Source of the DNA: Cyclobacteriaceae bacterium
GTDB taxonomy: Bacteria > Bacteroidota > Bacteroidia > Cytophagales > Cyclobacteriaceae
Reading direction: 5' to 3'
DNA: 64,000 nt
NCBI GenBank assembly: GCA_022841475.1
Contig: JALHRJ010000001.1
Coordinates: 27,430 to 91,429, forward strand
Positions 1 to 64,000 of the stretch are shown piece after piece. A program made the translations under genes and the position numbers. The notes under the pieces are model-generated. The model was not told the DNA's origin, did not search any database, and worked only from the letters and a program-made list of their open reading frames with translations. Within the stretch, counting starts at the first letter, position 1; each line of letters starts with the position of its first letter.

Positions 1-131
1 CTACAGGGTGTAGAAATATGTCGATATAGAGTGCATTAAAAATGTGTGTAATAAGCATTCTGCCTTGAAATTTCACAACTAACTAAACTGGTTCAATTAT
101 TAAGCTATGGTAAGAGAACAATTAAAACAAT

Positions 132-767
132 ATGAATTATTACAAAAATTATTTTCGAACAATTTTGGTGGTTGCCACTTTTATGCTTGTCGCAAATTTG
201 CAAAGCATTGCACAAACAAAACGAGCAGGTATAAAGGGTGGTTTAAATATCAGCAATCTCTATATTGACAATGTTACAGATGAAAATGCCCGTCTTGGAT
301 TTCATGTAGGTGTTTATGGTCAGCTCTTTTCTTCAAAAACATTTGCTATTCAACCGGAGTTACTCTTTTCAACCAAAGGCTCTAAAAATCAATACACGAG
401 CGGATCGCTTAATCAGGAAGTTCAATACAATTTGAACTATATTGATTTACCTGTTTTAGCTGTTTTCAAATTAGGAGAATCCGTGGAGATTCATGCCGGT
501 GGTTATGCGAGCTATTTAGTAAATGCAAATATTTCTTATAAGGGCGATTTAGTAACTGGGGCTGATGAAGTTGATAAAGATAATCTTTCATCCTATGATT
601 ATGGTTTAGCAGGAGGTTTAGGGTTTAACCTTAACAACGTTCAAATTGGTTTCAGGTACAATTATGGGCTTGTTAAAATTGCTGATAGCGATATTGCCAG
701 AGCTGCCATAGGTGATGCCAAAAATTCAGTTGCGCAAATATTCTTAGCCATCAATTTTGGGGACTAG
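132..767 (+). CDS. PorT-like outer-membrane beta-barrel protein
   Basis: Seen: residues 1-27 form a signal peptide (Lys/Arg start, hydrophobic core, cut near SIAQ-T). The mature part has alternating aromatic/hydrophobic strands such as AGIKGGLNISNL, FAIQPELLFSTKG and QIGFRYNYGL, and ends in a short terminal strand. Family knowledge: this matches the Bacteroidota outer-membrane beta-barrel family (OMP_b-brl_2, PorT-like), about 200 aa. These proteins sit in the outer membrane and mostly have no assigned substrate. The gene stands alone and ends at a hairpin shared with the convergent regulator gene. No specific function can be assigned. Confidence 0.8.
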   Translation: MNYYKNYFRTILVVATFMLVANLQSIAQTKRAGIKGGLNISNLYIDNVTDENARLGFHVGVYGQLFSSKTFAIQPELLFSTKGSKNQYTSGSLNQEVQYNLNYIDLPVLAVFKLGESVEIHAGGYASYLVNANISYKGDLVTGADEVDKDNLSSYDYGLAGGLGFNLNNVQIGFRYNYGLVKIADSDIARAAIGDAKNSVAQIFLAINFGD

Positions 768-62920: not shown

Positions 62921-63343
62921 ATGGAAACTTTAGAAAACGACAATATCACAGGAGTTAACGATAGCGGAAATAAAGCTAATACCCCTGTTAAATATTTAAC
63001 AGCGTTGACAATTATTGGAAATGAGGTTTACAATAATTCAGATGAGGATTTGGGGGAGGTAAAAGATGTGATGCTGAACCTGCACAATGGAAAAATTGAG
63101 TATGTGGTAATTGAGTATGGTGGATTCCTGGGCATAGGCGAAAAATTCTTTGCAGTGCCATTTAACGCATTGAAACTCGATACCAGCAGACACGCTTTCA
63201 TTCTTGATCAGAGTAAGGAAGTACTTGAAAATGCACCGGGGTTTGATAAGGATCATTGGCCAGAAACAAATTCCCAAACCATGGAGAAATCAAGCACGTA
63301 TTGGGGCAGTTTTATGGGACCGAATGTAGGCATATCAAGATAG
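62921..63343 (+). CDS. PRC-barrel domain protein
   Basis: Seen: KYLTALTIIGNEVYNNSDEDLGEVKDVMLNLHNGKIEYVVIEYGGFLGIGEKFFAVPFNALKLDTSRHAFILDQSKEVLENAPGFDKDHWPETN. This is a full PRC-barrel (GxxVxNxxGExLGxVxDxxxDxxxGxIxYxVIxxGGFLGxGxKxxAVPxxxL) plus the C-terminal xAPxFDxxxWP block. 140 aa. Family: photosynthetic-reaction-centre H-like barrels, in non-phototrophs linked to stress and RNA metabolism. Fits the surrounding stress cluster. Confidence 0.9.
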   Translation: METLENDNITGVNDSGNKANTPVKYLTALTIIGNEVYNNSDEDLGEVKDVMLNLHNGKIEYVVIEYGGFLGIGEKFFAVPFNALKLDTSRHAFILDQSKEVLENAPGFDKDHWPETNSQTMEKSSTYWGSFMGPNVGISR

Positions 63344-63422
63344 AAACATATCAAGAGAAAAAGTTGAGTAAATCTTACCTGGATGGACGTAAGCAAACCA
63401 AGTAGACTCGGTAGCCAGGGAA

Positions 63423-63453
63423 TCCCTGCCTGACTGCATCACGCAGGCAGGGA
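63423..63453. repeat. Palindrome within repeat copy A
   Basis: TCCCTGCCTG (63423-63432) and CAGGCAGGGA (63444-63453) with an 11-nt spacer. It spans the stop codon of the GIY-YIG frame and recurs in copy B. Confidence 0.8.
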
Positions 63454-63699
63454 ACCTGCATCTAGTATTTTATGAAGATACTTTTTGCCAGCTGCAGATT
63501 TGAAATATTTCTCGCGAGCTCGTGCAGCACCATAATCGGGATGTGGTTCCTTATAGATGACCTTCCATGGAATAAATGCTTTGGTATAGCGATTCCTTCC
63601 CTTATTATGTTCAATAAGCCTCCTTTCCACATCGTTTGAAATGCCAACATAAATTTCCTGATTGGCAGAGTTAGAAAGACAATAAACATAAATTGTGAC
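63439..63699 (-). CDS. GIY-YIG nuclease family protein, copy A (start unclear)
   Basis: Seen on the minus strand: VTIYVYCLSNSANQEIYVGISNDVERRLIEHNKGRNRYTKAFIPWKVIYKEPHPDYGAARAREKYFKSAAGKKYLHKILDAGSLPA, stop. IYVY and YVG are the GIY and YIG elements, RRLIEHN the conserved Arg/His helix, and AREKYFKSxxGKKYL the C-terminal signature of the UPF0213/YhbQ-like group. The track lists only the part from an internal GTG. No ATG precedes the domain within the frame, and an in-frame stop lies 27 bp upstream of the Val codon given here. The gene is therefore either started at a rare codon or has lost its true start at the repeat junction. The stop codon sits inside the palindrome. Confidence 0.6.
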   Translation of the reverse strand, partial: VTIYVYCLSNSANQEIYVGISNDVERRLIEHNKGRNRYTKAFIPWKVIYKEPHPDYGAARAREKYFKSAAGKKYLHKILDAGSLPA

Positions 63700-63710
63700 C
63701 CCGGCAGGAA

Positions 63711-63741
63711 TCCCTGCCTGACTGCGTCACGCAGGCAGGGA
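63711..63741. repeat. Palindrome within repeat copy B
   Basis: TCCCTGCCTG (63711-63720) and CAGGCAGGGA (63732-63741), spacer ACTGCGTCACG. Same structure as in copy A. Confidence 0.8.
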
Positions 63742-63987
63742 ACCTGCATCTAGTATTTTATGAAGATACTTTTTGCCAGCTGCAGATTTGAAATATTTCT
63801 CGCGAGCTCGTGCAGCACCATAATCGGGATGTGGTTCCTTATAGATGACCTTCCATGGAATAAATGCTTTGGTATAGCGATTCCTTCCCTTATTATGTTC
63901 AATAAGCCTCCTTTCCACATCGTTTGAAATGCCAACATAAATTTCCTGATTGGCAGAGTTAGAAAGACAATAAACATAAATTGTGAC
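63727..63987 (-). CDS. GIY-YIG nuclease family protein, copy B (start unclear)
   Basis: The predicted protein is identical to copy A over the whole domain. Because 288 is a multiple of three, the copies are in the same frame and only a single TGA separates the end of copy B (...KILDAGSLPA) from copy A (RSQAGIPAGVTIYVY...). Copy B in turn lies downstream of a third unit that starts at the window edge. As with copy A, no ATG precedes the domain. Confidence 0.6.
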   Translation of the reverse strand, partial: VTIYVYCLSNSANQEIYVGISNDVERRLIEHNKGRNRYTKAFIPWKVIYKEPHPDYGAARAREKYFKSAAGKKYLHKILDAGSLPA

Positions 63988-64000
63988 CCCGGCAGGAATC

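Follow-up and report, generated by a model that had tools for sequence, protein, structure and literature searches.

SegB of phages T4 and T6 is a free-standing GIY-YIG homing endonuclease of the tRNA region (PMC2988022, PMC13096335), and it has been shown experimentally that breaks and recombination at this region produce tandem repeats of a tRNA plus the nuclease gene, a process in which the 5′ tRNA and the 3′ nuclease gene share microhomology (PMC13096335). The locus described here lies at the end of a 64,000-nucleotide stretch of the genome of a Cyclobacteriaceae bacterium (the window) and resembles the SegB system in that a GIY-YIG enzyme is encoded beside tRNA genes. SegB homing is seen in mixed infection, and SegB co-localises with many isotypes. 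However, SegB is phage-borne and a full-length tRNA is amplified with it, whereas the present elements are chromosomal, encode proteins of only about 80-95 residues and leave their spare tRNA copies destroyed; neither a palindrome-bearing tRNA copy nor the fidelity of a lineage to one isotype has been reported for SegB.

Three further groups of known systems share features with this locus. By profile and by fold, the closest are the UPF0213/SLX1-like single-domain GIY-YIG proteins (PDB 1zg2, 1ywl; SLX1 6seh, 7cq2), whose solved members have been described as UPF0213 proteins or as SLX1 repair nucleases. Elements that integrate at tRNA 3′ ends, of the ICE or prophage type (PMC9897764), likewise restore the tRNA with their insert and leave a displaced tRNA fragment at the far end, but the present units measure only about 300-400 bp, have no integrase, restore either the 5′ or the 3′ part of the tRNA, are inserted in the anticodon, D or T arm, and contain a palindrome. 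Finally, REP/RAYT and Rickettsia-type palindromic elements also place short palindromes at many positions, one of them in frame in a protein gene, as is seen here; unlike REP/RAYT, the present unit has no Y1/HUH transposase and its palindrome is tied to a tRNA and to a GIY-YIG lineage.

A GIY-YIG array built on tRNA-Arg

The window ends in two 288-bp units (63419-63706 and 63707-63994, delimited with TRF and a repeat search), in which a GIY-YIG domain is encoded on the minus strand (PF01541, E 7e-16). The sole difference between the units is at 63438 (A/G), in the centre of a palindrome, TCCCTGCCTG-N11-CAGGCAGGGA, that occurs at 63423-63453 and 63711-63741 and spans the end of each frame. An earlier note on the window, made from its sequence, had described tandem 288-bp units that differ by one base, with a palindrome across the stop codon; both descriptions hold, and the TGA stop sits in the palindrome loop. 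The palindrome arms are 10 bp when the flanking TC/GA is included (63423-63453), and a degenerate 25-base version is expected 0 times in shuffled sequence. The features of the array are as follows.

63415..63424, minus strand: GATTCCCTGG, a diverged T-arm 3′ strand that closes the array (from sequence)
63419..64000, minus strand: the array inside the window, with two full units
63425..63451, minus strand: 27-bp palindrome in the tRNA-Arg T-loop, between GGTTC and GATTCC, supplying the TGA stop
63452-63462, minus strand: GATGCAGGTTC of this unit
63463..63693, minus strand: GIY-YIG domain of the terminal (tRNA-distal) copy (HMM match; Pfam PF01541 on the identical copy)
63695..63712, minus strand: GATTCCTGCCGGGGTCAC, the tRNA-Arg(CCG) 3′ end, running straight into the next GIY-YIG gene and identical to the intact tRNA 3′ end
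63713..63739, minus strand: second copy of the 27-bp palindrome, at the same T-loop site
63740..63750, minus strand: GATGCAGGTTC, which is the T-arm 5′ strand of tRNA-Arg(CCG), joined to the 3′ end of the GIY-YIG gene and identical to the intact tRNA
63751..63981, minus strand: GIY-YIG domain of the second copy, its protein identical to the first
63983-64000, minus strand: further occurrence of GATTCCTGCCGGGGTCAC
64112-64184 in window numbering, outside the window, minus strand: intact tRNA-Arg(CCG)

The window is part of a 208-kb contig in a draft genome of 282 contigs, and a 10-N assembly gap lies just past its end (64002-64011 in window numbering). A third unit, which the earlier note saw starting at the window edge, does exist as a partial copy, cut by this gap. 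Beyond the gap come the 5′ part of another GIY-YIG copy and then the intact tRNA-Arg(CCG) on the same strand, the order on the minus strand being tRNA-Arg, GIY-YIG, remnant, GIY-YIG, remnant. This nearby tRNA explains how the unit is put together: after a GIY-YIG gene comes a 3′ portion of tRNA-Arg(CCG), its T-loop split by the palindrome. The remnant consists of GATGCAGGTTC, the 27-bp palindrome and GATTCCTGCCGGGGTCAC, that is, the T-arm and 3′ end, and the insertion into the T-loop is clean, with no bases lost and no target duplication. GATTCCCTGG is possibly the displaced end of the original tRNA, as the architecture of other loci suggests. Because the intact tRNA lies outside the window, the tRNA-Arg origin of the palindrome flanks had been missed in the first reading. 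The intact tRNA is preceded by a degenerate tRNA-Arg(CCG) copy whose D-arm and anticodon loop each hold a different palindrome (locus L010, 1650-1780), traces of older events at the same gene. A PRC-barrel domain gene adjoins the array (window 62921-63343) on the strand opposite to the GIY-YIG genes, with no evident connection to them.

The absence of an ATG ahead of the domain, noted earlier for every copy, applies to both copies in the window; the copy adjoining tRNA-Arg has an in-frame ATG, located inside the tRNA gene. Readthrough into a poly-GIY-YIG protein, as then proposed, is not borne out, since the linkers (DAGSLPA*, IPAGV) are translated tRNA T-arm and palindrome, and since repeats elsewhere are often not in frame (spacings of 322, 323 and 365 bp). 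The protein consists of the domain alone, at about 80 residues (about 80-95 across members), and the catalytic residues Y5, Y16, G18, R26, H30 and E62 are invariant among 22 diverse members. A separate C-terminal DNA-binding region, as in I-TevI, is absent from it, the frame ending right after the domain in translated tRNA and palindrome. The nearest solved relatives by profile are UPF0213 proteins (1zg2, E 4e-16), followed by SLX1 (1e-7) and then I-TevI. An alignment-based structure model (pLDDT 94) has its best fold matches in the same order, UPF0213 and then SLX1 and I-TevI, with no Foldseek E below 0.001. PHROG homing families and TIGR01453 gave weak partial matches only, TIGR01453 below its cut-off. 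Together, the domain match and the conserved catalytic residues place the protein in the GIY-YIG nuclease superfamily. We have not filed it with the SegB family because it resembles phage homing families only weakly in sequence, has no extra DNA-binding region, and its cleavage in homing is putative.

tRNA linkage and palindromes across genomes

Related loci were gathered by similarity of the GIY-YIG protein alone, from relatives, named genomes and the phylum, and were not selected through tRNAs. In the phylum, matches (E 1e-8) were found in 126 of 198 genomes and in 72 of 102 genera. Among 138 distinct GIY-YIG loci or arrays, a tRNA gene lies within 170 bp in the same orientation in 101 and in the opposite orientation in none; 30, mostly more distant homologues, have no detected tRNA beside the gene, and seven are cut by contig ends. 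Linkage reaches 95 of 108 among members scoring at least 75 bits, as compared to 6 of 23 among weaker ones, and therefore belongs to a particular part of the GIY-YIG superfamily. The arrangement seen at the window recurs: the gene, in the orientation of the tRNA, is flanked by an intact tRNA on one side and by a partial copy of it on the other, and this copy was found as a significant match in 93 of the 101 tRNA-linked loci. There are two layouts. In the one that we call U, the intact tRNA precedes the gene and a damaged copy, generally extending to the tRNA 3′ end, follows it; in layout D a damaged copy beginning at tRNA base 1 precedes the gene and the intact tRNA follows. Each element is made up of a single-domain GIY-YIG nuclease gene, part of the cognate tRNA gene and a palindrome.

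The same arrangement appears elsewhere in the window's own genome (G000), where other stand-alone GIY-YIG genes of this type lie at tRNA-Met (two units), tRNA-Leu(GAG), tRNA-Phe and tRNA-Val (two units), most of them followed by a palindrome-containing, damaged copy of their own tRNA. Decayed GIY-YIG copies with stops and frameshifts also exist. Upstream of an intact tRNA-Met are repeated tRNA-Met 5′ halves, each with a TCCGCCAGTTGGCGGA palindrome in place of part of the anticodon arm (L012, 2100-2400; G000:C4).

The partial tRNA copy is broken up, or one of its arms is exchanged for other sequence, most often a GC-rich palindrome. Of 92 remnants, 53% contain a perfect, GC-rich palindrome whose arms measure at least 7 bp, as compared to 9% of intact tRNAs, 2% of shuffled remnants and 0.2% of flanks. 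GIY-YIG lineage, tRNA isotype and palindrome class go together: CCTGCC..GGCAGG occurs at Arg, TCCGCC..GGCGGA at Met and Asn, TCCCG..CGGGA at Val, Asp, Gly and Ala, and TGGCGC..GCGCCA at Pro. Agreement between class and isotype was scored by adding up the majority classes and came to 51 of 57, where 2000 shuffles averaged 32 and never exceeded 40; about a third of the remnants (36 of 93) have no palindrome of these four main classes. Within one isotype the interruption also falls repeatedly at the same place, for example around tRNA bases 38-48 in the majority of Met loci and 28-46 at Val and Pro, and only two of 306 control flanks contain palindromes of these classes. Therefore, the palindrome seems to travel with the element rather than being random litter. 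A census of 400 kb of sampled sequence found palindromes of the window class only beside tRNA and GIY-YIG genes, and on this ground a generic dispersed palindrome was rejected.

Some palindromes occur apart from a nuclease gene. Repeats of tRNA plus palindrome without a GIY-YIG gene were found in two genomes. On another contig of the window's genome, five tandem tRNA-Arg-like T-arm fragments each carry a palindrome of the same kind in the T-loop (L015, 3120-3520; G000:C30). Right after an intact tRNA-Arg(CCG) in genome G007 (L177) are three 92-bp repeats of T-arm and palindrome, which may be a remnant amplified alone or one whose gene has been lost. Copies of TCCCGA..TCGGGA also exist elsewhere, and related palindromes lie away from tRNAs, one of them being an 18-bp palindrome, TCCCGATAGCTATCGGGA, placed in frame close to the beginning of leuS, a leucyl-tRNA synthetase-like gene (L213; G000:C8:12317-12334). 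It would add six residues to the product, an arrangement reminiscent of Rickettsia palindromic elements.

Tandem arrays are common, and several lie in well-assembled genomes. For example, single-contig genomes carry five copies at 365 bp beside tRNA-Met (G210) and three at 323 bp beside tRNA-Ser (G172), a 3.3-Mb contig carries four at 322 bp beside tRNA-Pro (G226), and an equivalent array is found in a further single-contig genome (G228). The possibility raised with the earlier note, that the unit might be single-copy in all relatives, falls away with the arrays in single-contig genomes, and these arrays also rule out an assembly artefact as a general explanation. Outside Bacteroidota, members were found in Gracilimonas, Ignavibacterium, a Dehalococcoidales genome and candidate-phyla genomes, the last sampled as nine individual genomes. 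With 17 such GIY-YIG genes, one genome (G242, that of locus L121) is unusually rich in them for its 1.1 Mb.

Several known kinds of element were considered and set aside. The 288-400 bp inserts hold the GIY-YIG frame only, with no integrase or any other gene, which rules out an integrase-type element. Membership of REP/RAYT was likewise rejected, there being no transposase in the unit and no dispersal of the window-class palindrome in the 400 kb. A group I intron in a tRNA with its GIY-YIG endonuclease was ruled out, as an Rfam search of nine loci detected no intron RNA, and each locus has a single intact tRNA. Phage and plasmid records hold no close homologue, only distant ones under 60% identity, and a phage or plasmid vehicle was rejected accordingly; PADLOC gave only weak matches for a defence system.

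Nuclease lineages, occupied sites and empty sites

In a tree of 94 GIY-YIG proteins, isotype changes 26 times, where the least possible is 16 and 300 shuffles gave a mean of 69 and a minimum of 64; the tree was built on only 78 columns and many of its forks are unresolved, with groupings visible for Met, Asn, Ser(TGA), Leu, Arg, Pro, His, Phe and Val members. Purifying selection acts on the proteins, whose median dN/dS is 0.15 over 28 computable pairs. An orthologue of the window array was found at tRNA-Arg(CCG) in G030, with 71% DNA identity and a similarly interrupted T-loop; between the two proteins pN is 0.22 and pS 0.78, the latter saturated.

Both occupied and empty sites exist among relatives. 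At tRNA-Arg(CCG) the GIY-YIG gene lies after the tRNA in G000 and G030 and before it in G010, G035 and G017; the other genomes lack it there, and several of the GIY-YIG-free sites hold palindrome relics. An empty-site comparison at the window's own locus is not clean, because the neighbourhood is rearranged and older tRNA relics are present, and tRNA-Phe was therefore used instead. This tRNA is 100% identical in most genomes of the genus that were searched, and a GIY-YIG gene directly follows it at nine of 25 assessable loci, one of the nine being a weak, decayed match. With positions counted from the end of the intact tRNA, +385..655 of an occupied locus (L134) aligns with -16..258 of an empty one (L147), and +346..589 of the occupied locus in the window's genome (L155) aligns with -20..220 of another empty one (L154). 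The original downstream flank thus comes after the damaged tRNA-Phe copy, and therefore the element was inserted within the tRNA gene and brought along the piece, here a new 3′ part, that restores the tRNA. Judged by this presence and absence at tRNA-Phe and tRNA-Arg targets, the elements appear to work like free-standing homing endonuclease units. The patchy distribution could partly reflect loss.

A homing-type reading and its alternatives

We read the window array as one representative of a family of minimal mobile elements anchored at tRNA genes, with isotype-specific GIY-YIG nucleases of the homing type, a chromosomal counterpart of phage SegB, and put the probability of this reading at about two in three. 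The nuclease would cut its cognate tRNA gene in a loop, and repair of the break would copy the element in, with the tRNA sequence itself as the only homology needed. The element would then rebuild the tRNA that it has invaded. Its palindrome may mark the cut site and disable the displaced copy, and it would also block re-cutting of the spare copy and hinder loss of the element by recombination. Repeated cutting and unequal exchange would yield arrays, as for phage SegB. Several points count against this homing reading. The separate DNA-binding region of known homing enzymes is missing from the protein, and the nuclease would be expected to cut the intact tRNA next to its own gene as well. In addition, 30 of the 138 related genes have no detected tRNA beside them, palindromes also occur apart from tRNAs or nuclease genes, about a third of the remnants carry none of the four main palindrome classes, and phage and plasmid records gave no close homologue. 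The suggestion in the earlier note that palindrome and nuclease form a self-amplifying unit comes close to what the comparative evidence supports, since many genomes hold tandem arrays, sites are found both occupied and empty, lineages keep to one isotype and SegB offers a precedent, but it missed the key component, the tRNA gene.

Purifying selection, fixed orientation and loyalty to one isotype would suit a nuclease that serves its host in tRNA gene maintenance or tRNA processing and is kept beside the tRNA as a small operon. We consider such a function unlikely: most relatives lack the gene at the invariant tRNA-Phe, some copies have decayed, tRNA copies are duplicated and damaged, and copy number varies. 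Alternatively, the palindrome could be the mobile unit, as in REP/RAYT systems, with the GIY-YIG protein as its mobilising nuclease and the tRNA loop merely a preferred landing site. Clean insertion in tRNA loops without target duplication, the tRNA-plus-palindrome repeats that have no nuclease gene and the in-frame palindrome in leuS fit this idea, and the modelled SLX1-like fold may be suited to branched DNA. Yet the window-class palindromes are confined to tRNA and GIY-YIG surroundings in the 400 kb sampled, tRNA pieces are always part of the mobile segment, and many tRNAs in GIY-YIG-bearing genomes have no palindrome, all of which makes a palindrome-driven system improbable.

It is also conceivable that nothing binds the parts together, GIY-YIG genes gathering at tRNAs through other tRNA-targeting elements while neutral spare tRNA copies collect independent palindromes; tRNA genes are common integration sites where fragments are left behind (PMC9897764), and related palindromes do occur elsewhere. 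Such a coincidence is quite improbable in view of 288-400 bp inserts with no integrase or other gene, a palindrome class locked to isotype, an interruption position that recurs within isotype and the near absence of such palindromes from flanking DNA. A system acting on RNA, in which the protein cuts tRNA or the transcript of tRNA and palindrome is a decoy or antitoxin, could draw on the folding of the remnant RNA as an extended hairpin (z -4.0 and -2.8) and on the tRNA-like layout that many remnants keep. We regard it as very unlikely: the window remnant is a T-arm only, arrays and empty sites point to DNA events, and the substrate of GIY-YIG enzymes with known activity is DNA, which they cut. 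That the window array is a single unit multiplied by assembly can scarcely be credited even with the 10-N gap inside the array and a draft of 282 contigs, as the two full units differ by one base and equivalent arrays are present in the single-contig G210, G172 and G228 and on the 3.3-Mb contig of G226.

The homing-type reading can be widened to a new class of minimal selfish element in bacterial chromosomes. Isotype-specific GIY-YIG units of this class would invade tRNA genes by homing and restore the tRNA with sequence that they bring along, and a palindrome peculiar to each lineage would ruin the copy that is displaced; such units are found in Bacteroidota, Ignavibacteria, Balneolota, Chloroflexota and candidate-phyla bacteria. 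On this wider proposition we see the balance as even; a description of chromosomal units of tRNA, GIY-YIG gene and palindrome was not found in the open-licence papers searched. If it is true, many small proteins annotated as 'GIY-YIG nuclease family' and now read as orphan repair enzymes would be mobile elements, and each lineage would be matched to a single kind of tRNA gene by a domain of no more than about 80 residues. They would form a ready-made set for asking how so small a nuclease gains its specificity, and would bear on how an element lives inside an essential gene, on why a palindrome damages the spare copy and on the origin of many tRNA pseudogenes. The SegB mechanism of nuclease-driven tandem amplification would then extend from phages to chromosomes.
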